Part shown: positions 7,456 to 21,596 of the stretch, piece by piece | How positions within the stretch are numbered: the first letter of the stretch is position 1 | Layout of the letters: each line of letters opens with the position of its first letter | From: Candidatus Mediterraneibacter surreyensis | GTDB lineage: Bacteria; Bacillota; Clostridia; Lachnospirales; Lachnospiraceae | Length of the DNA stretch: 49,296 bases | Direction: 5' to 3' | Assembly: GCA_019118885.1 (NCBI GenBank) | Contig: DWYB01000018.1 | Coordinates: forward strand, 1-49,296 | Position numbers and translations under genes: made by a program | The notes under the pieces: generated by a model | The model's database searches: none | Seen by the model: only the letters and a program-made list of their open reading frames with translations | Told to the model about the DNA's origin: nothing

Positions 7456-8226
7456 ATGCTTGAGTTGAAAAATGTAAAGAAGAGTTATGACGGCACGCCG
7501 GTGCTCACCGACATCAGCCTGAATATTGAAGACGGAGAGATCGTTTCGATATTAGGACCGTCCGGATGCGGAAAGACGACGCTTCTTAACCTGATCCTCG
7601 GGATTGTGGATTCAGACGGCGGACAGATTATCTACAACGGAGAAGACATCACGAACGTTCCTATGGAAAAGAGAGGGTTCAACATTGTGTTTCAGGATTA
7701 CGCCCTGTTCCCGAATCTGAACGTGTATCAGAACATTACATACGGACTGAGAAATAATCCGGAGATTTCTTCCAGAGAGGAAGTGGAGGATCTGATCCAT
7801 CTGCTGGGGCTTGAAGAGCATTTAAATAAGAGGATCGGACAGCTCTCCGGCGGACAGAAGCAGAGAGTTGCCCTTGCGAGAACTTTGGTAATGAAGCCGA
7901 AGATCCTTCTTCTCGACGAGCCGTTAAGCGCTCTGGACGGCGTGATCAAAGAGTCTATCAAGGACAGGATCAGGACGATTGCCAGAGAGTACAATCTGAC
8001 GACGATCATCGTGACGCATGATCCGGAAGAGGCGCTGACACTCTCCAACCGTGTGATGATCATCAATGAGGGCAGGATCGCCCAGTTCGGCCGCCCGGAA
8101 GAGATTATCAGCAGACCGGAGAACGGGTTTGTTCAGAAATTCATCCTGAATCAGCTGGAGATTAAGAAGAACAATATTTTCACGCTGTTTTCAGGTCAGC
8201 TTGAACAACAGGTACAGGTCGGCTGA
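7456..8226 (+). CDS. AEP ABC transporter, ATP-binding protein
   Basis: The 256-residue protein is a complete importer ATPase with Walker A GPSGCGKTT near residue 36, the signature LSGGQKQRVALARTL near 130, and Walker B ILLLDEPLSALDG. It is of the FbpC/PotA/PhnT group that drives uptake of iron, polyamines or 2-aminoethylphosphonate. I start it at ATG 7456, after GAGGAG, where family homology begins (MLELKNVKKSYDG); an in-frame ATG at 7399 lacks a good ribosome site. The next gene is the permease, and phnW and phnX follow in the operon, which points to AEP as the substrate. There is no long C-terminal TOBE regulatory domain. Confidence 0.93.
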   Translation: MLELKNVKKSYDGTPVLTDISLNIEDGEIVSILGPSGCGKTTLLNLILGIVDSDGGQIIYNGEDITNVPMEKRGFNIVFQDYALFPNLNVYQNITYGLRNNPEISSREEVEDLIHLLGLEEHLNKRIGQLSGGQKQRVALARTLVMKPKILLLDEPLSALDGVIKESIKDRIRTIAREYNLTTIIVTHDPEEALTLSNRVMIINEGRIAQFGRPEEIISRPENGFVQKFILNQLEIKKNNIFTLFSGQLEQQVQVG

Positions 8227-8239
8227 AGGGGTGAGTGTT

Positions 8240-9910
8240 ATGAGAAAGAACAGAGAGATTAAGGCTATTTTTGCGGTGATGGCAGTATTTTTCGCGGGAT
8301 TTCTGGCAGTGCCCATGATCAGTGTCCTGGTGAAATCCTTCACCGGAAACGGAGAAGCAGCATCGCTTTCCCACTACGTCGAGGTGCTGACCGGAAGAGG
8401 CTTCCTGCGCGCTTTGGGGAACAGCTTTGCAATCTCCATATGCAGTGCGCTTCTCGCGACTGTCCTGGCCTTTATCCTGGCATATACGATCCACTACACA
8501 AATGTGGGAAAAAGGTATAAATGGCTGATCAGCAAGGCGGCGATCCTTCCTATGCTGCTCCCGACGATCACTTATGGATTTGCGATCATTTATTCCTTCG
8601 GAAAGCAGGGACTGCTGACACAGCTCTTCGGAAGACAGCTCTTTGATATCTACGGATTCAACGGTCTTCTTCTGGGCTATGTAGTGTATACGCTCCCGAT
8701 CGCATTTACCCTGATCAACAATGCCATGGGGTATATCGATAAGAGATTTATGATCGTGTCAAGGCTTATGGGGGATTCCCCGCTGCAGACTTTCCGCATG
8801 ACGATCGTAATCCCGCTTCTGGGAACCCTGGCAACGTCATTTATCCAGACTTTCTTCCTGTGCTTTACAGATTTCGGTATACCGGCGTCTGTAGGAGGAC
8901 AGTATGAGGTTGTGGCGAGCGTGCTTTACGAAGAAATGCTCGGAAGTATCCCGAACTTTGGCAACGGTGCGGTCGTGGCGCTTGTCATGATCATTCCGTC
9001 GGTAGTAAGTATCACGGTACTCCATATCCTGGAGAAATATAACGTGCGCTACAACAAGATCTCACCGATCGAGCTGAAGAAAGGCGTGAAGAGAGATATA
9101 GTATTTGCAGTATTGAGCGGCGCGGTCCTGATCTGTGCGCTGAGTATGTTCATTGTTATGTTCGTGACTCCGTTCATCGAGGAGTGGCCTTACCGGATGA
9201 ACTTTACACTGGAGCATGTACAGGCAGTGTTCGAAGACAGGCAGCTCTACGGTGTCTATGTAAACTCCGTGATCGTAGCCCTGATCACTGCCCTGGCAGG
9301 CACGCTGATCGCCTATGGCGGTGCGCTGGTGACGGCCAGAAGTACGGTGAGCGGGAAATTGAAGAAGGTGATCGACAGCATCGCTCTGGTGACGAACACG
9401 ATCCCCGGCATGGTCATCGGTCTTGCCTACCTGTTCGTGTTCACAGGGACACCGCTTCAGAATACCTTCCCTATCATCATCATTTGTAACGTCGTCCACT
9501 ATTTCTCGACGCCGTATCTGATGATGAAGAACTCCCTGTCCAAGATGAATGCATCGTGGGAGACGACAGCAATGCTGATGGGAGACAACTGGATGAAGAC
9601 GATCGCAAGAGTTGTGACTCCGAACGCCCTTTCCACACTGCTGGAGGTATTCAGTTACTACTTCGTAAATGCAATGGTTACAGTCAGCGCTGTCATCTTC
9701 ATCGCCGGTGCAAGAACTATGGTCATTACGACTAAGATACAGGAACTTCAGTATTTCAATGAATTTAACGAAATCTTCGTTCTGTCGCTTCTGATCCTGT
9801 TCACAAATCTGATCGCAAGGGCAGTGTTCCGCAGACTGGCGAAGATGAGCGAGAGCAGACAGAAGACGGCAAAAATATACCGTTTTGCTGAAAAGAAGAA
9901 GGCTGCCTAA
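8240..9910 (+). CDS. AEP ABC transporter, fused two-domain permease
   Basis: The 556-residue protein is an FbpB-type double permease: two binding-protein-dependent transport domains in one chain, about residues 50-270 and 330-540, with some twelve hydrophobic spans. In homologous AEP systems these halves may be separate (PhnU and PhnV). I choose ATG 8240 after GAAGGGGTGAG; an upstream in-frame start at 8201 would overlap the ATPase gene by 26 bp. It forms the membrane channel for the substrate bound by the lipoprotein at 9980-10993. The C-terminus is basic (FAEKKKAA) and cytoplasmic. Confidence 0.92.
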   Translation: MRKNREIKAIFAVMAVFFAGFLAVPMISVLVKSFTGNGEAASLSHYVEVLTGRGFLRALGNSFAISICSALLATVLAFILAYTIHYTNVGKRYKWLISKAAILPMLLPTITYGFAIIYSFGKQGLLTQLFGRQLFDIYGFNGLLLGYVVYTLPIAFTLINNAMGYIDKRFMIVSRLMGDSPLQTFRMTIVIPLLGTLATSFIQTFFLCFTDFGIPASVGGQYEVVASVLYEEMLGSIPNFGNGAVVALVMIIPSVVSITVLHILEKYNVRYNKISPIELKKGVKRDIVFAVLSGAVLICALSMFIVMFVTPFIEEWPYRMNFTLEHVQAVFEDRQLYGVYVNSVIVALITALAGTLIAYGGALVTARSTVSGKLKKVIDSIALVTNTIPGMVIGLAYLFVFTGTPLQNTFPIIIICNVVHYFSTPYLMMKNSLSKMNASWETTAMLMGDNWMKTIARVVTPNALSTLLEVFSYYFVNAMVTVSAVIFIAGARTMVITTKIQELQYFNEFNEIFVLSLLILFTNLIARAVFRRLAKMSESRQKTAKIYRFAEKKKAA

Positions 9911-9979
9911 ACAGCATGGCATACGGCCTTCGACATCAGAAATAGAAAATATCATAAGTTTATAAGGAGAATTGTAATT

Positions 9980-10993
9980 ATGAAAAAGATGATTTTTAAG
10001 AGAGCAGCATCACTTACACTTGCAGCGGCAGTGGCTGTGACAGGCATGGGACTTACAGGATGTGACACAGGTTCTTCAGGGGATCAGATTATTATTTATT
10101 CCAATGCGGATGAGGAAGCTATCACGGCGATGGAAAACGCGCTTGACAACAACGGTTATGAGGGGCAATACATGTTCCAGACATTCGGAACTTCCGAGCT
10201 TGGCGGAAAGCTGCTTGCTGAGGGAACAAACATTGAGGCGGATATGGTGACTATGAGTACGTTCTATGTAGAGAGCGCGCAGGCTCAGAACTCTATGTTT
10301 CAGGATCTGACCTTTGATGTAGATACGATCGATGAATTCGAGCCTTACTGTGCACCGATTACCTCACAGGAAGGAACAATCATCGTGAATACAGAGATGA
10401 TGGAGGAAAACAACCTTCCGATGCCGGCATCCTTAAAGGATCTGGCTGATCCGGTATACAAAGGATACCTTTCTGTGACAGATATTTCGGCGTCTTCCAC
10501 TGCATGGCTCCTTATCCAGGCGCTCGTATCCGCATACGGTGAGGACGGAGCACAGGAAGTGCTCACAGGCATCTATGAAAATGTAGGAGATCACCTTGAG
10601 GATTCCGGTTCTGCACCGCTGAAGAAAGTACGTGCCGGAGAAGTGGCTATCGGATTCGGCCTTCGTCAGCAGGCGGTTGCAGATAAAGCAGACGGACTCC
10701 CGATCGACTACATTGATCCGGAGGAAGGAAACTTCAGTCTGACAGAGTCTGTTGCGATCGTAGACAAGGGCGACGACACAAATCCGCTGGCAATGGAAAT
10801 GGCACAGTGCATTATCGAGAACGGGCGAGAAGAGCTGCAGTCCTACTATCCGAACGCACTGTATAACGGAGAGACTACAGATGCGGAAAATAAATCAGCA
10901 AATCCGCAGGTGTTCCCGGAAAAACTGACAGTTGACCTTCTGGAGCAGCACCAGGCGATTTCCGAGGCGGCAAAAGAGGCGGCCGGACTGTAA
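9980..10993 (+). CDS. AEP ABC transporter, substrate-binding lipoprotein
   Basis: The 337-residue protein has a lipoprotein signal peptide with the lipobox GLTGC at Cys28 and then a type II periplasmic-binding fold (IIIYSNADEEAITAM at the start of the mature part), like the FbpA/PhnS group. It would capture 2-aminoethylphosphonate outside the membrane and deliver it to the fused permease. TAAGGAG precedes the start. A perfect hairpin follows it (10999-11031) and may stabilise its mRNA, as binding proteins are needed in excess. The substrate is inferred from the phnW and phnX genes that follow. Confidence 0.92.
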   Translation: MKKMIFKRAASLTLAAAVAVTGMGLTGCDTGSSGDQIIIYSNADEEAITAMENALDNNGYEGQYMFQTFGTSELGGKLLAEGTNIEADMVTMSTFYVESAQAQNSMFQDLTFDVDTIDEFEPYCAPITSQEGTIIVNTEMMEENNLPMPASLKDLADPVYKGYLSVTDISASSTAWLLIQALVSAYGEDGAQEVLTGIYENVGDHLEDSGSAPLKKVRAGEVAIGFGLRQQAVADKADGLPIDYIDPEEGNFSLTESVAIVDKGDDTNPLAMEMAQCIIENGREELQSYYPNALYNGETTDAENKSANPQVFPEKLTVDLLEQHQAISEAAKEAAGL

Positions 10994-10998
10994 ATTCC

Positions 10999-11031
10999 GG
11001 GACGTAGTAAAATCTGATTTTACTACGTCCC
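10999..11031. other. Perfect intercistronic hairpin between the binding protein and phnW
   Basis: GGGACGTAGTAAAA and its exact reverse complement enclose the 5-nt loop TCTGA. No T-run follows, so it is more likely an mRNA-stabilising or processing element, or a partial attenuator, than a full terminator. Confidence 0.75.
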
Positions 11032-11065
11032 CAATCAACAATCAAAGAGAAAAGAGGAAACAGAG

Positions 11066-12172
11066 ATGAAATCATATAAACTTCTTACACCGGGCCCACT
11101 TACTACAACGGATACGGTAAAACAGCAGATGATGTTTGATCACTGCACATGGGACGATGATTATAAGCAGATCACACAGGAAATCCGGAAAGGACTTTTA
11201 AAACTGGCTCATGTATCCGAAGATGAGTATACGGCAGTGCTGATGCAGGGAAGCGGTACATTTGGCGTGGAGTCTGTGCTTACGAGCGTGATCGGATCAG
11301 GAGACGAGCTTCTGATCTGCGCCAACGGCGCATACGGCGAGCGTATGGCTGATATCGCAGACCACGCAGGAATTAAGCATCAGGTATACAATGAGCACTA
11401 CAACAAAGTGCCAAATGCCCAGAAAATCGGCGAGATGCTGGACGCGGATCCGGCGATCACACATGTATCCATGGTACACAGCGAGACGACATCCGGTATC
11501 TTAAATGATATCGAAGCGGTTGGAAAAGTCGTAAAGGAAAAAGGAAGAGTCTTTATCGTAGATGCCATGAGCAGTTTCGGAGGCGTAGACATTCCGGTGG
11601 AAGACTGGGGGATCGATTTCATTATCAGCAGTGCCAACAAGTGTATCCAGGGTGTGCCGGGCTTCTCTTTCATTATTGCAAGACGCGATCTTCTGGAGGC
11701 GAGCGCGGGAAAAGCAAGAAGCCTCTCTCTTGACCTGTATGACCAGTGGAAGACGATGGAAGTAGACGGCAAATGGAGATTTACTTCCCCGACCCACGTG
11801 GTGCTCGCTTTTGCCCAGGCGATGAAAGAGCTGGAGGAAGAAGGCGGCATAGAGGCGAGAAGCAGACGCTATACTGAGAATAACAGGCTTCTCATTGAAA
11901 AGATGGCTGAAATGGGGATTCATCCGTATATTGACAGTACCCACCAAGGGCCGATCATCACGACTTTCTTCTACCCGGAAGAGTGCCACTTTACATTTTC
12001 ACAGATGTATGAGTACATTAAGGACAGAGGATATGCGATCTATCCGGGCAAAGTGACGGAGGCCGAGACGTTCCGTATTGGAAATATCGGGGAAATCTAT
12101 CCGGAGGATATTGAGAAAGTATGCGCGATCATAAAGGAATTTCTGGAGGAATACAATCATGAAGAAAATTAA
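11066..12172 (+). CDS. phnW: 2-aminoethylphosphonate--pyruvate transaminase
   Basis: The 368-residue PLP enzyme transfers the amino group of AEP to pyruvate, giving phosphonoacetaldehyde and alanine. It begins KLLTPGPLTTTDTVK as PhnW proteins do, contains DAMSSFGG with the PLP-interacting Asp near residue 167, and the Schiff-base lysine is Lys192 in SSANKCIQGVPG. Length is normal for the family. AGAGGAAACAG precedes the start. Its last 14 bases overlap phnX, which indicates translational coupling of the two steps of the pathway. Confidence 0.96.
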   Translation: MKSYKLLTPGPLTTTDTVKQQMMFDHCTWDDDYKQITQEIRKGLLKLAHVSEDEYTAVLMQGSGTFGVESVLTSVIGSGDELLICANGAYGERMADIADHAGIKHQVYNEHYNKVPNAQKIGEMLDADPAITHVSMVHSETTSGILNDIEAVGKVVKEKGRVFIVDAMSSFGGVDIPVEDWGIDFIISSANKCIQGVPGFSFIIARRDLLEASAGKARSLSLDLYDQWKTMEVDGKWRFTSPTHVVLAFAQAMKELEEEGGIEARSRRYTENNRLLIEKMAEMGIHPYIDSTHQGPIITTFFYPEECHFTFSQMYEYIKDRGYAIYPGKVTEAETFRIGNIGEIYPEDIEKVCAIIKEFLEEYNHEEN

Positions 12173-12932
12173 GGCTGTGATCTTTGACTGGGCAGGAACA
12201 ACGGTAGATTTCGGATGCATGGCGCCGGTGCAGGCATTTGTGGAAGTGTTTAAACAGTTCGGCATCGAGCCGACCATGGAGGAAGTGCGTGAGCCCATGG
12301 GCATGCTCAAGATCGACCATATCCGCACCATGCTGAAGATGGATCGGATCAAAGCGCTCTGGACAGAGAAGTACGGTAAAGAGCCGGGAGAGGAAGAAGC
12401 GCAGGCGTTGTATCAGATTTTCGAGGAGAAGCTTTTGAGCATTCTTCACCTCTACTCCGATCCGAAGCCAGGCGTGGTTGAAACCGTAAACCGTCTGAGA
12501 AGAAACGGTATCAAGATCGGTTCCACCACAGGATATAATGACAAGATGATGGAAATTGTAGTTCCGGCAGCAAAGGAGAAAGGCTATGAGCCGGACGTGT
12601 GGTTCAGCCCGGATTCTACCGGACAGAAAGGCCGGCCCTATCCATATATGATCTTCCGCAATATCGAGGCGCTGGGTGTCAAGAAGGTGCGCCGTGTCCT
12701 GAAAGTGGGGGATACGATCTCTGATATCAAGGAAGGAAAAAATGCAGGAGTATGGTCGGCAGGCATAGTAGTCGGAAGTTCGGAGATGGGACTGAGCCAG
12801 GAGGAATACGAAGCACTCTCTTCGGAAGAAAAGGAAGAAAAGTGCCGGGAAGTCTCAGAAAAATTCCTGGATGCAGGAGCTGACAAAGTATTCTACACAA
12901 TAGAAGATCTGGGAGAATTTCTCCTCGGGTAG
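12159..12932 (+). CDS. phnX: Phosphonoacetaldehyde hydrolase (phosphonatase)
   Basis: The 257-residue HAD-superfamily enzyme cleaves the C-P bond of phosphonoacetaldehyde to acetaldehyde and phosphate. The nucleophile Asp is residue 10 in FDWAGTTVDFG, which has the W-A-G-T pattern of phosphonatases. The cap carries the Schiff-base lysine region MGMLKIDHIR, and VGDTISDIKEGKNAG is the metal-binding motif. It overlaps phnW by 14 bp with GGAGGA inside the end of phnW. With the transporter it completes an AEP-to-phosphate route. A terminator follows at 13010-13049. Confidence 0.95.
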   Translation: MKKIKAVIFDWAGTTVDFGCMAPVQAFVEVFKQFGIEPTMEEVREPMGMLKIDHIRTMLKMDRIKALWTEKYGKEPGEEEAQALYQIFEEKLLSILHLYSDPKPGVVETVNRLRRNGIKIGSTTGYNDKMMEIVVPAAKEKGYEPDVWFSPDSTGQKGRPYPYMIFRNIEALGVKKVRRVLKVGDTISDIKEGKNAGVWSAGIVVGSSEMGLSQEEYEALSSEEKEEKCREVSEKFLDAGADKVFYTIEDLGEFLLG

Positions 12933-13054: not shown

Positions 13055-13109
13055 TTTACATAGATTTAACATAGACTTGATTTTACATTTTACATTTCTC
13101 TTTTATGAT
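13055..13109 (+). promoter_or_regulatory. Pho box and promoter of pstS
   Basis: TTTACA (13055), TTAACA (13066), TTGATT (13077) and TTTACA (13089) lie at 11-12 bp steps, the pattern of PhoP-binding direct repeats in Firmicutes. TATGAT at 13104-13109 is a good -10 and there is no vegetative -35, as expected for a PhoP-activated promoter. The regulators phoP and phoR are encoded at the end of the same cluster. Confidence 0.8.
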
Positions 13110-13201: not shown

Positions 13202-14119
13202 ATGAAGATGAAAAAGTTTATCGCAGTATTAGCAACAGTATCAATGGTAGCAGCTATGGCAGCAGGATGCGGAAGCAGCTCAGACGACACATCTGCTGAA
13301 GGAGATGCAGCGACAACAGAGGAAGGCGGAGATTCCGGAAGCTGGGATGCAGCAAATATGATCACAGCCGTAACACGTGAGGAAGGATCAGGTACGAGAG
13401 GAGCTTTCACAGAGCTGTTCGGTGTTGTCGATGAAGAGGACAACGATATGATCACTCTGGACGCTCAGACTACAAACAGCACATCCGTTATGATGACAAC
13501 TGTATCTGAGAATGAATATGCAATCGGTTACATCTCTCTTGGATCTCTTGATGAGTCTCTTGTAAAGGCTGTTAAGATTGACGGAGTTGATGCTACAGCT
13601 GAGAATATTGAGAACGGAACTTACAAAGTATCCAGACCGTTTAATGTAGCAGTAAAACCGGATTCCGATAATGCAGTGGCTGCAGATCTTATGGCATTTA
13701 TCATGAGTACAGAGGGCCAGCAGGTTGTAGCTGATGAAGGATACATTCCGGTAGCAGATGTTGAGGCTTATGCTGGCGATGCTCCGGAAGGAAGCTGTGT
13801 GGTAGGAGGATCTTCCTCTGTATCTCCGCTGATGGAGAAACTGATCGAAGCTTATGCAGAAGTTAACCCGAATGCATCTATCGAGCTTCAGACGTCTGAT
13901 TCTACTACAGGTATGACAAACGCAATCGAGGGAAGCTATGATATCGGTATGGCATCAAGAGAGCTCAAAGACGAAGAAGCTGCTGAACTTCAGGGAACAG
14001 TAATCGCTACAGACGGTATCGCAGTTATCGTAAACCAGAACAACCCAACAGACGATCTGTCATCTGATCAGGTTAAGAGCATCTACCTTGGCGATGTAAC
14101 AACATGGGATGCCATCTAA
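13202..14119 (+). CDS. pstS: Phosphate-binding lipoprotein PstS, circularly permuted
   Basis: The 305-residue protein has a lipobox at Cys23 (AMAAGC), an acidic linker and all the conserved blocks of PstS, but in rotated order. The usual second half comes first: TREEGSGTRGAF at 58-69, AIGYISLG at 107-114, VSRPF at 143-147, EGYIPV at 179-184. Then comes the usual N-terminal half: GGSSSVSPLMEKL at 202-214, YDIGMASREL at 246-255, DGIAVIV at 271-277 and IYLGDVTTW at 294-302. The protein stops just after this, exactly where normal PstS crosses into TREEGSGT. Phosphate-contact blocks (GSSSV and R-E-E-G-S-G-T) are both present, so it should still bind phosphate. The start has AAAAGGAG upstream. pstC, pstA and pstB follow. 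Confidence 0.93.
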   Translation: MKMKKFIAVLATVSMVAAMAAGCGSSSDDTSAEGDAATTEEGGDSGSWDAANMITAVTREEGSGTRGAFTELFGVVDEEDNDMITLDAQTTNSTSVMMTTVSENEYAIGYISLGSLDESLVKAVKIDGVDATAENIENGTYKVSRPFNVAVKPDSDNAVAADLMAFIMSTEGQQVVADEGYIPVADVEAYAGDAPEGSCVVGGSSSVSPLMEKLIEAYAEVNPNASIELQTSDSTTGMTNAIEGSYDIGMASRELKDEEAAELQGTVIATDGIAVIVNQNNPTDDLSSDQVKSIYLGDVTTWDAI

Positions 14120-14130
14120 AGTAAAGCATT

Positions 14131-14185
14131 AGTTCAGCCGCAGTAAGCACGAGAGTGCGGCTTTGAGAATGCCGTGTGCTGAACT
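14131..14185. repeat. Second copy of the TTCAGC/GCTGAA structured repeat, after pstS
   Basis: AGTTCAGC (14131-14138) and GCTGAACT (14178-14185) enclose an inner stem GCCGCA/TGCGGC. The 17 bases at 14135-14151 are the exact reverse complement of 1773-1789 in the element before the GH31 gene. It lies 11 bp after the pstS stop and could stabilise the pstS message. Confidence 0.65.
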
Positions 14186-14240
14186 TTTACAATTTACACA
14201 CAGAGAAATTCTTGAAGAAAAGATTTCCGCTTTTAAATTT

Positions 14241-14277
14241 TGAGCCGGGCAGATATGAGGCATGTCTTCCCGGCTCA
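14241..14277. other. Hairpin just before the pstC ribosome site
   Basis: TGAGCCGGG and CCCGGCTCA form a 9-bp stem that ends 3 bp before AGGAGG of pstC. It has no T-run. It may moderate readthrough or translation of pstC compared with pstS. Confidence 0.5.
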
Positions 14278-14290
14278 TCAGGAGGAAAAA

Positions 14291-15184
14291 ATGAAATCAA
14301 AAGCATGGACTGAAAAATTCATGCAGGGAGTTTTTTTCGTAGCCGCGTGTGCATCCGTGCTTGCGGTAGCGCTTATTTGCATCTTCCTGTTCGCAAATGG
14401 AATCCCTGCAATGAGAGAAATCGGATTTATCAAATTCATCACAGGAGAAATCTGGCGCCCGAACAGTGAACAGTTCGGAATTCTGCCGATGATCGTAGGA
14501 AGCCTTTATGTGACGGCGGGAGCGATCATCTTCGGTGTGCCGATCGGTATCCTGACTTCTGTATTCATGGCGATGTACTGCCCGAAACAGATTTACAAAC
14601 CGCTGAAAGCAGCAACAGAGCTTCTTGCAGGAATCCCTTCGGTTATTTACGGCTTCTTCGGTCTGGTCGTTGTGGTTCCGCTTATACGTGAATTCGGAAC
14701 TGCACTTTATAAAGCAGGACTGGTGAGCAAACCGGGTAACGGTAACAGCATCCTGACGGCTTCCCTTATCCTTGGCATGATGATTCTGCCGACGATCATC
14801 GGAACGACAGAGAGCGCAATACGTGCGGTACCCTCACATTATTATGAAGGTTCACTTGCGCTGGGCGCGACAAAAGAGAGAAGCATTTTCCGAGTTATCA
14901 TTCCGGCAGCCAAATCAGGTGTGATCGCGGGAATTGTCCTCGGTATCGGCCGTGCGATCGGCGAGACGATGGCTGTAATAATGATTGTCGGTAACCAGGC
15001 AAGACTTACGGGAAGTATTCTGGATGGTATTCGTACTCTTACCGGAAATATCGTAATTGAGATGGGTTATGCGACAGGCCTTCACAGAGAAGCGCTGATC
15101 GCAACAGGAGTTGTACTCTTTGTGTTCATCCTCATCATCAACTTAAGCGTAGCGTTATTGAAGAGGGGGGCGGATCATGAGTAA
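14291..15184 (+). CDS. pstC: Phosphate ABC transporter permease PstC
   Basis: The 297-residue membrane protein is one of the two channel subunits of the high-affinity phosphate importer. It has about six spans and the permease loop EGSLALGATKERSIFRVIIPAAKSGV followed by GIGRAIGETMAVI, diagnostic for PstC. ATG 14291 directly follows AGGAGGAAAAA; an in-frame TTG 51 bp upstream lies inside the hairpin and is unlikely. Its end overlaps pstA by 8 bp. Confidence 0.96.
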   Translation: MKSKAWTEKFMQGVFFVAACASVLAVALICIFLFANGIPAMREIGFIKFITGEIWRPNSEQFGILPMIVGSLYVTAGAIIFGVPIGILTSVFMAMYCPKQIYKPLKAATELLAGIPSVIYGFFGLVVVVPLIREFGTALYKAGLVSKPGNGNSILTASLILGMMILPTIIGTTESAIRAVPSHYYEGSLALGATKERSIFRVIIPAAKSGVIAGIVLGIGRAIGETMAVIMIVGNQARLTGSILDGIRTLTGNIVIEMGYATGLHREALIATGVVLFVFILIINLSVALLKRGADHE

Positions 15185-16061
15185 GCAGACAGAAATCAAA
15201 ATGGTTAATAAGAATACGATAGGGGATAAGTTCAGGACCTATCTGAAACATCCGGGTTCACTGATCGTAATGTTGCTTGTGATGCTGGCGGCGATCGTTA
15301 CATTTGCTGTACTGATTTTTCTGATCGCTTATATCCTGATCAATGGCGTGCCGCACATTACTCCGTCACTTTTTTCACTGGAATACAGTTCTGAAAATGC
15401 GTCGGTAGTTCCGGCTTTCGTAAATACAATTGTTATGACACTGTTATCCCTTATTATTGCGGTTCCTTTCGGAATCTTCTCTGCGATCTTCCTCGTAGAG
15501 TACGCAAAAAGGGGGAATAAATTCGTTGAGATCATTCGTCTGACGACAGAGACACTCCAGGGAATTCCATCGATCGTATATGGACTCTTTGGTATGCTAT
15601 TTTTTGTAAATACTCTGGGATGGGGATTCTCCCTTCTGGCAGGCGCCTTTACCATCGCGATCATGATCCTTCCGCTGATCATGAGGACTACAGAGGAAGC
15701 TCTGAAAGCAGTTCCTGATTCCTATCGCGAGGGAAGCTTCGGACTCGGAGCAGGAAAACTCCGTACCGTATTCCGCATCGTGCTGCCGTCCGCAATCCCG
15801 GGCGTGCTCGCAGGTGTGATCCTTGCGATCGGACGTATCGTCGGTGAGACAGCAGCTCTGATGTACACATCCGGAACTGTGGCTCAGATTCCGGACAGCG
15901 TAATGGGATCCGGACGTACGCTGGCTCTTCATATGTATGTACTCTCAAGTGAGGGCCTTTATATGGATCAGGCGTATGCAACAGCAGTAATCCTGCTCAT
16001 ACTTGTAGTGGGTATCAACGCACTGTCAAGTTTTATTGCAAGAAAACTTACGAAAGCGTAA
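15177..16061 (+). CDS. pstA: Phosphate ABC transporter permease PstA
   Basis: The 294-residue membrane protein pairs with PstC. It has a cytoplasmic N-terminus of about 30 residues, six hydrophobic spans, and the EAA-type loop [26 protein letters not shown] followed by [13 protein letters not shown]. It starts within the end of pstC (ATGAGTAA overlap) after GAGGGGGG, so translation is coupled. PstB follows after 16 bp. Confidence 0.96.
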
Positions 16062-16077
16062 AAGAAAGGGAAAGGAA

Positions 16078-16827
16078 ATGTCTAAGTTAAGTATAAAGAA
16101 TCTGGATTTATATTACGGTGATTTCAAGGCCCTGAAGAATGTAAATCTTGAGATTGAAGCAAATAAGATCACCGCTTTCATCGGACCTTCCGGCTGCGGT
16201 AAATCTACTCTTCTGAAATCCATCAACCGTATGAATGACCTCGTGGAAGGATGCCGTATCGATGGCGAGATCCTTCTGGATGGCGAGAACATCTTCAAGG
16301 GCATGGACGTAAATATGTTAAGAAAGCGCGTCGGAATGGTATTCCAGAAGCCGAATCCCTTCCCGATGAGCATTTATGATAATATTGCATTCGGACCGAG
16401 GACACATGGCATCCGTTCCAAGGCAAAGCTGGATGATATCGTGGAGAAGTCACTGCGTAATGCTGCGATCTGGGACGAGTGTAAAGACCGACTGAAAACG
16501 AGTGCGCTTGGCATGTCAGGCGGACAGCAGCAGAGACTCTGTATCGCCAGAGCCCTTGCGGTAGAGCCGGAAGTGCTTCTGATGGATGAGCCTACGTCTG
16601 CTCTTGACCCGATCTCTACATCTAAGATCGAAGACCTTGCGATGGAGTTGAAAAAAGACTATACTATAGTCATGGTTACACATAATATGCAGCAGGCGGT
16701 ACGTGTATCTGATAATACAGCATTCTTCTTGCTCGGAGAAGTTGTAGAGTACAACGATACGGAAAAATTATTCTCTATACCGTCTGATAAAAGAACAGAA
16801 GACTATATCACAGGGAGGTTCGGTTAA
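16078..16827 (+). CDS. pstB: Phosphate ABC transporter ATP-binding protein PstB
   Basis: The 249-residue ATPase powers the Pst importer. Walker A is GPSGCGKST near residue 35, the Q-loop region is [20 protein letters not shown] (characteristic of PstB), the signature is [15 protein letters not shown] and Walker B is [14 protein letters not shown] start at ATG 16078 (GGAAATG after AAAGGGAAAGG), because homology begins [14 protein letters not shown]; a start at 16036 would lie inside pstA. PhoU follows 3 bp after the stop. Confidence 0.96.
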
Positions 16828-16830
16828 ATC

Positions 16831-17499
16831 ATGCGTAATAGGTTTGATGAGCAGCTGCACTCACTCGACGAGCAGCTTACACATATGGGAGAACTCTGCG
16901 AGACTGCGATCGCAAAAGCTACACAGGCGCTTAAAGACGGCAGTATCGAGCAGGCAAAGATTATTATCTCAGAAGATGAAGAGATCGATCAGATTGAAAA
17001 AGACATTGAGAGACTGTGCTTAAAGCTTCTGCTCCAGCAGCAGCCGGTTGCGAAGGATCTTAGAAGAATTTCGGCAGCGCTTAAGATGATTACGGATATG
17101 GAGCGTATCGGAGATCAGACTTCAGATATTGCAGAGATCATCATTTCTTCTAAAGGGGTTGCGGCGACGGACGAAATCCATGTGATCGGTACGATGGCGT
17201 CAGAAGTCAGCAAGATGGTCCGCAACAGCGTGACAGCCTATGTGAACCGGGATCTTGAACTGGCACAGAGCGTTATGAAGGCTGACGATGAGATCGACCA
17301 GTATTTTGAGGAAGTCCGTGATGAGATGATCGACTTCATTAAAGAAGAGAAAGGTGAGAACGGCAAGAGGATCTTTGACCTGATCATGGTGACAAAATAC
17401 CTTGAACGTATCGGAGATCATGCGACAAATATTGCCGAGTGGGTAGAGTTCTCTATTACAGGCGTACACAAAGACAGCGCGATCATTCACGAAGGCTGA
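16831..17499 (+). CDS. phoU: Phosphate transport regulator PhoU
   Basis: The 222-residue all-helical protein has the two PhoU repeats with the metal-binding-type motifs DMERIGDQTSDIAE (about residue 90) and KYLERIGDHATNIAEWV (about residue 190). PhoU links the Pst transporter with the PhoR kinase and damps the response when phosphate is plentiful. It begins 3 bp after pstB and is followed by phoP and phoR, the usual functional grouping. Confidence 0.95.
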   Translation: MRNRFDEQLHSLDEQLTHMGELCETAIAKATQALKDGSIEQAKIIISEDEEIDQIEKDIERLCLKLLLQQQPVAKDLRRISAALKMITDMERIGDQTSDIAEIIISSKGVAATDEIHVIGTMASEVSKMVRNSVTAYVNRDLELAQSVMKADDEIDQYFEEVRDEMIDFIKEEKGENGKRIFDLIMVTKYLERIGDHATNIAEWVEFSITGVHKDSAIIHEG

Positions 17500-17585: not shown

Positions 17586-18260
17586 ATGATATATTGCGTG
17601 GAAGACGACGACAACATCCGCGAACTTGTAATATATACACTGGAGACAACCGGGCTTAAGGCCAGAGGGTTTGCAGACGGTTCTGCTTTTATGGAGGCTC
17701 TGGCGTTTGATACGCCGGAGCTTATTTTGCTTGATATTATGCTCCCCGGGGATGATGGACTTGAGCTGTTGAAGAAACTGAAGTCTTCGCCTAAGACAAA
17801 GAGCATCCCGGTGATCATGGTGACTGCAAAAGGTTCGGAGTATGACAAAGTAGTTGGTCTGGACTCCGGAGCAGATGACTATGTGACGAAACCTTTCGGC
17901 ATGATGGAGCTTGTCTCCCGTATCAAAGCGGTGCTTCGCCGCAGTGGCAAGGTGGAAGACAGGATGGATATGGAGACGGCCGGTGTACATGTGGATGTGA
18001 AGAAACATGAAGTAACGGTGGACGGCAAAGAAGTTTCTCTGACGCTCAAGGAATTTGAACTTCTGGAAAAGCTGATGCGCAACCAGGGAATTGTTCTGAC
18101 CAGAGATCAGCTTCTGACAGAGATATGGGGATATGACTTCGACGGTGAGACAAGGACTGTTGATGTACATATCAGGACTCTTCGGCAGAAGCTTGGCGAA
18201 AAGGGCGAGATCATTCAGACGGTCCGTGGCGTCGGCTACCGTGTCGGAGGGGTTGCATGA
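17586..18260 (+). CDS. phoP: Response regulator PhoP (OmpR family)
   Basis: The 224-residue protein has a receiver domain with acidic residues EDDD near 6-9, the phosphorylation site Asp50 in LILLDIMLPGDDG and the conserved Lys in VTKPFGMMEL, then a winged-helix DNA-binding domain (about residues 125-222, RTVDVHIRTLRQKLGE and VRGVGYRV). Placed after phoU and overlapping the kinase gene by 4 bp, it is the phosphate-response regulator. It should bind the Pho box before pstS, and possibly the one at 7304-7342. AAGGAG precedes the start. Confidence 0.92.
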   Translation: MIYCVEDDDNIRELVIYTLETTGLKARGFADGSAFMEALAFDTPELILLDIMLPGDDGLELLKKLKSSPKTKSIPVIMVTAKGSEYDKVVGLDSGADDYVTKPFGMMELVSRIKAVLRRSGKVEDRMDMETAGVHVDVKKHEVTVDGKEVSLTLKEFELLEKLMRNQGIVLTRDQLLTEIWGYDFDGETRTVDVHIRTLRQKLGEKGEIIQTVRGVGYRVGGVA

Positions 18261-19579
18261 GAAAAAAGATTCAGAGAAGTATGGTGATGGTGCTCGCTGT
18301 CACCCTGCTTCTTTCTTACATTATATTAACATTGATCACGTATAACAGAAATCTGGATACGCTGGAATCGGAAGTCAGGCAGGAAGCGAAATATATCCAG
18401 GCTGCTATCAATATATCCGGAGCACAGTATCTCGAGGAGATGGATGGTGTCGACTGGACGACCCGTGTCACCCAGATTGATGAGAACGGGGATGTTCTCT
18501 ATGACACGCGCAGGGACAGCAGTACACTTGAGAATCACAGCGGAAGAAAAGAGGTCAGAGAAGCCCTGGCAGAAGGTGAAGGAGAAGATGTCAGAATGTC
18601 TGATACTGTCGGACAGGAAATGTATTATTATGCTCTTCTCCTGGACGATGGAACAGTGCTGCGCGCCTCCAAATCAATGGACGGTCTGGTCAGGACTGCG
18701 CTTGGCAATCTGCCGATCATGGCGGGACTTGCCGCTGTTATGCTGGTACTGGCCTACTTCCTGGCAAAATGGCAGACAAAGCGACTGGTAAGACCTTTAT
18801 ATGAACTCGATCTTGAGCATCCGTTGGAAAACAAGACATATGAAGAACTCACCCCTTTTCTCGAAGCAATGGATAAGCAGAATAAAGAGAAAGAGGCTGT
18901 CTCAAACATGCGCAAAGAGTTCTCTGCAAATGTTTCGCATGAGCTGAAGACGCCGCTTACTTCTATATCCGGTTATGCAGAGATCATGAAGAACGGTATG
19001 GTGCGGCAGGAAGATATTCCTCTGTTTTCCGAACGCATTTATAAGGAGGCGCGACGTCTTATCACTCTTGTTGAAGATATCATCAAGCTCTCAAAGCTGG
19101 ACGAGGAATCTGTTGAGCTGGAGAAGCAGGAGGTGGATCTGTATGAGCTGACGCGTGAGATCGTCAGCCGTCTTGCACCGCAGGCATCTCAGAAAAATAT
19201 ACGCATGGAGCTGTCCGGAGAACCTGTGAATTATTTCGGTATACGTCAGATCCTTGATGAGATGATCTACAATGTATGTGAGAATGCGGTGAAGTATAAT
19301 AATGAGTACGGACGGGTGTCCGTGTGGGTCGGAAACACGCTGGACGGTCCTAAAGTCACAGTATCGGATACCGGAATCGGTATTCCCAAAGAGCATCACG
19401 AGCGGATTTTTGAGCGTTTCTATCGGGTAGACAAGAGTCATTCAAAAGAGCGCGGAGGCACCGGACTGGGGCTTTCTATCGTAAAGCACGGAGCACTCCT
19501 TCATGGGGCGAAAGTCACGGTGGACAGTGCTCCCGGAAAGGGAACAAGGATTGAGATGCAGTTTCCGAAAGAAAAATAA
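18257..19579 (+). CDS. phoR: Sensor histidine kinase PhoR
   Basis: The 440-residue kinase has a first membrane span at about 8-28, an extracellular region at about 30-150, a second span at about 152-171, then the dimerisation and phosphoacceptor helix FSANVSHELKTPLTS with His228, the N-box CENAVKYNN, the G1 box DTGIGIP and the G2 box GGTGLGLSI. It phosphorylates the PhoP partner, whose gene it overlaps by ATGA. No cytoplasmic PAS domain is evident, unlike some PhoR proteins, and the HAMP-like linker is short. Confidence 0.92.
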   Translation: MRKKIQRSMVMVLAVTLLLSYIILTLITYNRNLDTLESEVRQEAKYIQAAINISGAQYLEEMDGVDWTTRVTQIDENGDVLYDTRRDSSTLENHSGRKEVREALAEGEGEDVRMSDTVGQEMYYYALLLDDGTVLRASKSMDGLVRTALGNLPIMAGLAAVMLVLAYFLAKWQTKRLVRPLYELDLEHPLENKTYEELTPFLEAMDKQNKEKEAVSNMRKEFSANVSHELKTPLTSISGYAEIMKNGMVRQEDIPLFSERIYKEARRLITLVEDIIKLSKLDEESVELEKQEVDLYELTREIVSRLAPQASQKNIRMELSGEPVNYFGIRQILDEMIYNVCENAVKYNNEYGRVSVWVGNTLDGPKVTVSDTGIGIPKEHHERIFERFYRVDKSHSKERGGTGLGLSIVKHGALLHGAKVTVDSAPGKGTRIEMQFPKEK

Positions 19580-19829: not shown

Positions 19830-21596
19830 ATGAAACGAAAAATTGCGATCATTCTGTGCGCGGCGCTGGGGGTCATGACGTTGGCTGCGTGCGGGAAAAA
19901 GGAAGCAGAGGAACCTGCGGCAGAGGAGCCGGCGGTTACGGAAGAGGCCGAAGAAGAGGAAAATGCAGAGGGTACAAGTCAGGAAAATGCGATCATGCTG
20001 ACACTGGGAGAAGAGGTCACCGGAACGATAGACGACGGATCGTATGTCTGGTACGCTTTTACGACTGACAATACTCTCGGAACTACGTACAATATTACAT
20101 TTGTTAACGCAACGCCGGAGACAAATGCTCTTCAGGGCAGCCTGATCGATGATGCGGGTACGGAACTGAACAGTGATACTTCAGACAACAACGGCACGGC
20201 GGCTACGATCAGTACAAATCAGCTGGAAGCCGATACAACATACTATGTACGGTTGAATCCGACAGAGACAGACTCGTTGGATTACACACTTACTGTTGAG
20301 AGCCTTGGCGACGGCACAGCCGCAGGGCAGGTGGGAACAGCAGGCAGTCTGTCCGGCGATGAGATTGTTCCGGGAAGCAGTCAGGCTGACGCTGTACTGG
20401 TTCCATTGGGAACAAAGGTATTCGGTACGATGAAGAGTGACACATATTCCTGGTTTGCATTTACTACCGGGGATGTTGCGGAAACGACTTATAATATAAC
20501 ACTTATAAATGCTACTCCGGGAACAGATACGCTTTTTGGAACTTTGTGTGACGAATACGGGGAAGAACTGGGGGAAGCACGTGCTGAGAGTGATGGAACG
20601 CCTGACACGATCAGAGCGGAGGGACTTGAGCCGGACACTACATATTATGTCCGCCTCAAAATGACAACATATGATCCTCAGATCGTTGATTACTCCCTTG
20701 TTGTCAAGGATCCAAACGAGAAAACTACAGCCTACAGGACTGAGGGAAGTCTTTCTGAAGCTAAGGGAACGTCAGTCGCAGAGGATGGATCCGCAGAAGC
20801 TGGTACAAATCCGGATAATGCGGCCATTCTTCCGATCGGAACACAGATAGCCGGAACAATGGACAGTGATGCTTATGCATGGTTTGGATTCACTACAGGA
20901 GAAACCCAGGGGGCTGCCTACAAGATCACACTTGTAAATACTACTGCAGGCAGTGAAAGGATATTCGGAACTCTGTGTAACGAATACGGGGAAGAACTGG
21001 GGGGAGTACGTGCCGAGAGCGATGGAACGCCTGACACGATCAGCGTAGAGGATCTTGAGCCGGACACTACATACTATGTCCGCCTGAATATGCATACATA
21101 TGATGCCCAGACTGTGGGCTATACTCTGGGAGTAAAATCTCCGGAAGAGAAGAAAGCAGAGAATACATATGTTTTTGAAACACCGTTCGAGATCAATGAA
21201 ACACAGGTTCAGTTTGTGCCGGATCAGGCTGAGTTCCTTGACGAGGCAAAGGCAAAAGAAGTGTTGAAGCCCGTAGCAGAAGCGATTCTGGCAGCTCCGG
21301 ATCATTCCGTGCTGATCGCGGGTACAACAGCCACGGACGGTGATCAGGCATCCTCAGTTGTGCTTTCGGAGAAACGTGCCGAAGCGGTGAAAGAACTGCT
21401 TACCGATACTTATAATGTGCCGGAATCCCAGCTTGAGACAATCGGTCTTGGCTATGAGCTGGACCCGTTTGAGAGGGGAAAGGACATCGACGGAAACGGA
21501 AACTTTGTGGAATCAGAAGCCAAGAAGAACAGACGGGTTGTCATTCTGGATATCGATGATCCGATCGCACAGGAACTGCTCAAGAACAATAAATAA
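19830..21596 (+). CDS. Lipoprotein with three beta-domain repeats and a C-terminal OmpA domain
   Basis: The 588-residue protein has a lipobox at Cys21 (TLAAC), an acidic linker, three repeats of about 110 residues (roughly 50-155, 182-292 and 325-435) and an OmpA-like domain (about 448-588). Each repeat has the form G-T-x-(D/S)-Y-W-(Y/F)-(A/G)-F-T-T ... EPDTTYYVRLN and resembles bacterial pre-peptidase C-type beta sandwiches. The OmpA part shows SSVVLSEKRAEAVKELL and EAKKNRRVVIL. OmpA domains bind peptidoglycan, so this lipid-anchored protein may tie membrane to wall. It is unusual in a Gram-positive. It stands before the sigma gene and shares its promoter motif. The exact role is unknown. 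Confidence 0.85.
   Translation: MKRKIAIILCAALGVMTLAACGKKEAEEPAAEEPAVTEEAEEEENAEGTSQENAIMLTLGEEVTGTIDDGSYVWYAFTTDNTLGTTYNITFVNATPETNALQGSLIDDAGTELNSDTSDNNGTAATISTNQLEADTTYYVRLNPTETDSLDYTLTVESLGDGTAAGQVGTAGSLSGDEIVPGSSQADAVLVPLGTKVFGTMKSDTYSWFAFTTGDVAETTYNITLINATPGTDTLFGTLCDEYGEELGEARAESDGTPDTIRAEGLEPDTTYYVRLKMTTYDPQIVDYSLVVKDPNEKTTAYRTEGSLSEAKGTSVAEDGSAEAGTNPDNAAILPIGTQIAGTMDSDAYAWFGFTTGETQGAAYKITLVNTTAGSERIFGTLCNEYGEELGGVRAESDGTPDTISVEDLEPDTTYYVRLNMHTYDAQTVGYTLGVKSPEEKKAENTYVFETPFEINETQVQFVPDQAEFLDEAKAKEVLKPVAEAILAAPDHSVLIAGTTATDGDQASSVVLSEKRAEAVKELLTDTYNVPESQLETIGLGYELDPFERGKDIDGNGNFVESEAKKNRRVVILDIDDPIAQELLKNNK
20538..20680 (+). repeat. Direct repeat inside the lipoprotein gene (copy 1)
   Basis: This 143-bp stretch is close to identical to 20967-21109, exactly 429 bp (143 codons) further on. 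The other flanks of the repeats are much less similar, which suggests recent duplication or gene conversion between the second and third beta domains. Confidence 0.7.
20967..21109 (+). repeat. Direct repeat inside the lipoprotein gene (copy 2)
   Basis: Partner of 20538-20680; both encode GTLCNEYGEELGG-type sequence through EPDTTYYVRL. Confidence 0.7.

Follow-up and report, generated by a model that had tools for sequence, protein, structure and literature searches.

The window, a stretch of 49,296 nucleotides from Candidatus Mediterraneibacter surreyensis, carries on its forward strand a pst operon headed by a pstS open reading frame at 13202-14119, the coordinates given earlier. The product is a 305-residue PstS lipoprotein with swapped halves, in which module A (residues 52-190) precedes module B (residues 196-305). 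Its sequence families were PBP_like_2 and PstS, and nothing in the window reached an Rfam gathering score. The features of the locus are listed below.

13055-13094, + strand: Pho-box-like repeats TTTACA, TTAACA, TTTACA and TTTACA (TT[ACT]A[CT]A hexamers), putative PhoP sites
13082-13109, + strand: promoter-like TTTACA-16-TATGAT (10/12 in a consensus scan), overlapping the last repeats
13202-13270, + strand: signal peptide and lipobox, read from the sequence and ending at Cys23, which was unchanged across 52 aligned sequences
13271-13354, + strand: tether with a W48-D49 motif, the W lying 11 residues N-terminal to Arg59; residues 1-44 had pLDDT below 50
13312-16400, + strand: stretch exchanged for a PstS-PstC-PstA cassette of canonical order in two genomes of the genus, L258 and L259; 3′ edge at about 16400-16600, inside pstB
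13355-13771, + strand: module A, residues 52-190, the C-terminal half of ordinary PstS (TIGR02136 positions 162-295 at 13355-13753; 4q8r 120-245)
13751-13792, + strand: new linker, residues 184-197, bridging the former C- and N-termini; between both matches and modelled confidently
13787-14119, + strand: module B and stop, residues 196-305, the N-terminal half of ordinary PstS (TIGR02136 positions 40-157; 4q8r 5-111)
14291-15184, + strand: pstC (TIGR02138, 296.9 bits, cut-off 196.45)
15177-16061, + strand: pstA (TIGR00974, 281.2 bits, cut-off 193.45)
16078-16827, + strand: pstB (TIGR00972, 418.5 bits, cut-off 343.2)
16831-17499, + strand: phoU (TIGR02135, 212.4 bits, cut-off 130.25)
17586-18260, + strand: response regulator, PhoP/PhoB-like by inferred name (Response_reg and Trans_reg_C)
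18257-19579, + strand: sensor kinase, PhoR-like by inferred name (HisKA and HATPase_c)

The lipobox, putative Pho box and downstream pstCAB-phoU described in the first-pass annotation were all recovered, the lipobox ending at Cys23 and the four downstream genes scoring above the cut-offs of their TIGR profiles, with a two-component pair following them. The putative Pho box consisted of four hexamers in the 200 upstream bases, compared with a mean of 0.6 after dinucleotide shuffling, and none of 500 shuffles contained as many. A pair of hexamers with starts 10-13 nt apart also lay upstream of the gene in 16 of the 19 relatives checked. The promoter-like site was weak by itself, because the region held six such sites when 2.5 were expected. 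On the other side of the operon, positions 19830-21596 encode a lipoprotein-like protein of 588 residues, with an OmpA domain at its C-terminus and, by eye, internal repeats. Adjoining the pst genes upstream, positions 8201-12932 hold a permease, a solute-binding protein, a class-V aminotransferase and a HAD hydrolase, which by their inferred names look like a 2-aminoethylphosphonate uptake and degradation set.

The gene had been proposed to be a natural circular permutant, with the conserved PstS blocks in rotated order and the new ends in the loop between TTW and TREEGSGT. All the named blocks were found in the sequence in that order, and profile, structure-database and rotation controls supported the permutation. 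In the genome search, TIGR02136 (NCBIfam ptsS_2) matched with its positions 162-295 at 13355-13753 and its positions 40-157 at 13793-14122, and its match to the window protein (E 2e-55) placed the rotation far beyond chance. The native order scored 188.1 bits in two rotated stretches, below the curated cut-off of 206.6, while the same letters rotated back scored 209.9 bits in a single stretch covering positions 1-295 of 295; it is thus the arrangement of the halves that keeps the model from recognising the window protein. Similarly, the native protein matched canonical 4q8r in two stretches and canonical 4gd5 in two plus a chance piece in the signal peptide, while the rotated-back copy matched each in one. 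The opposite was found for 4h1x, the structure of Streptococcus pneumoniae PstS2, which the native protein matched in one stretch (49-305) and the rotated copy in two, indicating that 4h1x shares the permuted order. A single phage PstS family in PHROGs was matched, likewise in two stretches. Both halves of PstS were therefore present once each and swapped, with the old ends joined and the new ends within one loop, as in a natural permutant. In 49 canonical junctions inspected by eye, the loop between the halves consisted of a W, about 14 residues and then the R of REEGSGT, and it is within this loop that the permuted chain starts and ends.

Such an order could also arise through errors in assembly or sequencing, or through the joining of two gene fragments into a chimera, and the window genome is a draft of 90 contigs whose nearest records include many metagenome assemblies. 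We give this explanation a negligible probability and rejected it, since independent genomes and a solved structure carry the same order: a colinear full-length match was found in 52 of 58 genomes from the genus, including that of the window, a complete A-B open reading frame was present in all 80 loci kept from 231 relatives, permuted PstS occurred in two complete plasmid records (H11 and H12), and a permuted protein had already been crystallised (4h1x). The first-pass annotation had named a normal-order gene on re-sequencing as evidence against permutation; many assemblies carry the rotated order instead. The protein was 100% identical in the nearest named record, Candidatus Mediterraneibacter intestinigallinarum, which belongs to Lachnospiraceae by its NCBI lineage and was 98.5% identical in DNA over 9.1 kb.

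The genuine permutation was not unique to this genome. Genomes were counted from the match tables as permuted when one continuous match spanned the two halves in the rotated order. In the survey of Lachnospiraceae suggested earlier, with one genome per genus, permuted PstS was found in at least 65 of 200 genera, any match at 1e-8 being present in 125. The class sample gave at least 40 of 196 genomes (match in 114) and the phylum sample at least 11 of 299 (match in 195), the latter count leaving out genome G284, whose match lay inside a gene with the module order B-A-B-A. In the class to which an Erysipelotrichaceae record (L080) belongs, permuted order was present in 57 of 247 genomes, three of these being A-B-A-B genes, and a match at 1e-20 in 66. 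These samples overlap, some genomes, including the window's own, being in several. Within the genus, the 58 genomes comprised 52 with a full-length permuted gene, one with a fragment, three with a canonical-order gene only and two with none. Permuted PstS with its own pstCAB-phoU was also found on a plasmid of Treponema saccharophilum, which suggests transfer beyond the phylum; this gene and a permuted one on a Monoglobus plasmid were annotated as ‘substrate-binding domain-containing protein’. Five short unannotated faecal records named ‘Bacteriophage sp.’ (MT837962, MT838544, MT837530, MT838145 and MT837061) gave a colinear permuted-order PstS match and are possibly bacterial contigs filed as phage. 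At locus L178 the permuted gene was split across frames, and the genome concerned (G451) has a canonical one too.

Structure prediction, also suggested in the first-pass annotation, indicated that the chain closes into one fold like that of the solved permuted PstS. The failure to form a single closed fold, which the annotation had named as contrary evidence, did not appear in the prediction. AlphaFold2, run with a 52-sequence alignment that included the window's, gave a mean pLDDT of 87.0 and a pTM of 0.78 with the tether included, and the 44 residues below 50 were the N-terminal ones. With Foldseek, the best solved structure was 4h1x, aligned over the whole chain (E 1.4e-33, TMt 0.89, TMq 0.76, rmsd 2.2, 258 columns). 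Canonical 4gd5 aligned over just 127 columns, as expected if half of the chain is out of order, and other type II binding proteins, including canonical phosphate-binding 4jwo and 4pqj, aligned over about 270 columns with an rmsd near 10 and TM below 0.4. Residues R59, S63, G64, T65, S204-S206, S234, T235, S252, R253, D271 and G272 were unchanged in all 52 sequences, the window's included. We take these motif residues to be phosphate contacts, mapped by motif from the contacts of E. coli PstS, and infer that phosphate would be bound in the usual cleft.

The suggestion that this is the working phosphate receptor was supported by the operon, by the retained motif residues and by the lack of any other convincing PstS in an assembly with a completeness of 90.3%. 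The remaining two TIGR02136 matches had E values near 5e-4 and covered the first third of the model only, and no second, canonical PstS was found in this search of a draft that is 90% complete and from which a second pstS could therefore be missing. The genomic context was mostly the same elsewhere. PstC or PstA lay within 600 nt of 184 of the 208 permuted open reading frames in the fetched loci (193 distinct sequences), two having no room and 22 having neither gene at that distance, and within 600 nt of 41 of the 49 canonical ones. The order PstC, PstA, PstB, PhoU, PhoP, PhoR followed in 67 of the 72 permuted frames with more than 5.5 kb of room. Two adjoining permuted PstS genes were found upstream of the pst genes in L182, L183 and L185, and a [Ruminococcus] torques record (L050) carried a full-length permuted PstS downstream of which no pst gene was detected on the same strand.

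A role as a regulator, or as a scavenger of an anion other than phosphate, would be compatible with the apparent phosphonate uptake and degradation set just upstream and with the existence of a divergent permuted group (L168, L169, L171 and L174-L177, among others) near which no PstC was detected in the stretches fetched. For the window gene we consider it very unlikely, given that the gene heads pstSCAB-phoU behind Pho-box-like repeats, that its motif residues are retained and that no other convincing PstS was found in the 90% complete assembly. The divergent group itself is possibly a receptor with another role. Altogether, we put at about 93% the probability that the gene encodes the working phosphate receptor of the Mediterraneibacter Pst importer in circularly permuted form. 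Cys23 would anchor the permuted protein, which would dock on its cognate PstC and PstA.

To place the permutation in the family, trees were built from the modules set in one order, and permuted PstS fell into two groups with canonical rows between them. Group I contained the window, Lachnospiraceae and 4h1x (support 99/94), and group II mainly genomes from the class of L080 (support 96/93), both values coming from a 76-row tree for which 28 rows, long branches among them, had been dropped after the first tree was seen. Thinning by identity and by hand reduced the rows from 267 units to 104, 76 and 69. The best PstS trees required two changes of order, and forcing one permuted clade was 34.5 log units worse (AU p 0.033), or gave an AU p of 0.074 in a second row set with fast rows removed; these and the following AU tests are weakened because the groups were given their names only once the first tree was available and group II was defined by a list of loci. 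The neighbouring, unpermuted PstC rejected one clade (AU p 1.5e-5), as did PstS plus PstC (1.7e-5). The PstC trees comprised 53 of 57 rows (L258, L248, L181 and L235 dropped), and the tree that rejected one clade had group II itself in two places, although group II as a single clade was not rejected (p 0.267). When the group II rows L211 and L217 were removed, leaving 51, one clade was no longer rejected (p 0.337).

Two origins as a firm claim were consequently dropped, PstS alone being equivocal and the PstC result resting on L211 and L217. That the rotation arose twice is, in our estimate, an even bet. Derivation of both groups from one permutation, whose descendants later parted or moved between PstC backgrounds, falls just short of even odds: both groups are cut in the same loop, and neither the PstS modules nor PstC stripped of these two rows clearly rejects one clade, while the two changes needed by the best PstS trees and the full PstC and combined tests speak against it. 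Both groups also commonly share an aromatic residue 11 positions before the key Arg, mostly followed by Asp. It was present in 134 of 192 distinct permuted N-termini (group I, 112 of 159; group II, 22 of 33), with groups assigned by locus list and five open reading frames lacking the Arg motif left out.

A route to the rotated order is offered by tandem genes. Scanning 257 loci for modules yielded 208 frames of order A-B (permuted), 49 of order B-A (canonical), four A-B-A-B, one B-A-B-A and four fragments; the ratio of A-B to B-A is no frequency, because the loci were chosen for their resemblance to the window and some of them overlap. The four A-B-A-B frames correspond to three genes, one of them lying in two overlapping loci (L231/L238, with L239 and L240 as the others), and the B-A-B-A gene is L092. 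In these genes the same modules as in the window protein are fused in frame, but each chain holds two complete units, unlike the single one of the window protein. PstC or PstA was found within 600 nt of the B-A-B-A frame and of three of the four A-B-A-B frames, the fourth being without room. The copies within a gene were 73% identical in protein sequence in L092 and 79, 88 and 93% identical in the A-B-A-B genes, which indicates that at least the older tandem genes are no assembly slips. An in-frame tandem duplication of PstS would give B-A-B-A; if the leading B, which lies between signal peptide and A, and the terminal A were then lost, the permuted gene would remain. This route requires tandem intermediates, and since such genes exist today, it is open. 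The B-A-B-A gene sits among canonical PstS in the tree and not beside the permuted groups; it attests to the step as such and does not imply ancestry of the window lineage. The window protein has a W-D motif at each end, SWDA around residue 48 and TTWDA at the C-terminus, and this was considered as a relic of tandem duplication. Because group II has the aromatic at -11 too, we kept the motif as a hint only; selection or shared descent explains it equally well.

Exchange of the gene together with its neighbours was detected within the genus. In L258 and L259, the DNA identity to the window in 200-base windows was 82-95% up to 13311, no blastn match was found at 13400-16000, and identity was 69% at 16000-16400 and 81-96% beyond. 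The flanking proteins were closely similar (transaminase 98-99%, phosphonatase-like protein 96-98%, PhoU 95%, response regulator 98%, kinase 93%), as was the signal peptide (89% over 37 residues). In contrast, the mature PstS, which is in canonical order, was 30-33% identical, PstC 37% and PstA 38%, with PstB at 80%. This profile indicates that a cassette running from just past the lipobox to mid-pstB was exchanged and that PstS moved with its permeases. The swap was probably one event, since the PstS sequences of L258 and L259 are identical. A third genome (L260) showed a similar layout at lower identity and without the upstream genes, and a fourth (G966) carried both kinds of PstS, the canonical copy lying in L261. 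The canonical cassette is rare in the genus, which suggests that canonical replaced permuted.

Taken as a whole, a broader scenario may be proposed, which we hold only tentatively: that the rotation occurred at least twice in Bacillota, in the same loop, via tandem-fused PstS and on different PstC backgrounds, and that permuted and canonical PstS-PstC-PstA cassettes have been exchanged whole, from signal peptide to pstB, by recombination.

Among known proteins, the closest counterpart was S. pneumoniae PstS2 (SP_2084, 4H1X), which comes from another organism and has the same permuted order, being colinear with residues 49-305 of the window protein at 42% identity. Canonical PstS of Clostridia (4GD5, 4Q8R; TIGR02136) has the same two halves and motifs in the opposite order. 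The 4H1X entry was released in 2012; the term occurred in no paper of the PMC literature searched, and no description of the structure as permuted was found. Nor was a paper on permuted PstS recognised among the PMC matches listed, in a search that was not exhaustive and had subscription literature mostly outside it. Permuted PstS thus apparently remains undescribed, though the structure has been public since its release. Among ABC binding proteins, the only published natural permutant that the search brought up was TpMglB-2 (Tp0684) of Treponema pallidum, a tethered, circularly permuted ABC-transporter binding lipoprotein for which Type Ic / Cluster Bc was proposed (PMC4990184). Its authors found most of its relatives among treponemes and Gram-positive bacteria and suggest a link to tethering (PMC4990184). 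As described there, TpMglB-2 has a type I sugar-binding fold, not that of PstS; a fourth lobe crossing results from the permutation, and the permuted part is poorly conserved in sequence, whereas both halves of the window PstS keep their motifs. The best fold match of the window protein was PstS, not the type I sugar-binding fold of Type Ic / Cluster Bc. By analogy, TpMglB-2 may be regarded as a precedent for permuted PstS.

Permuted PstS is a real, widespread and probably functional form of a familiar protein. Although PstS counts among the textbook binding proteins, its halves are swapped in about a third of the family's genera sampled. Canonical, permuted and both tandem forms exist side by side with a natural cassette swap, in whichever direction it ran, under one promoter and signal peptide. 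With such a set, direct tests can be made both of duplication as a route to circular permutation and of how binding protein and permease are matched.
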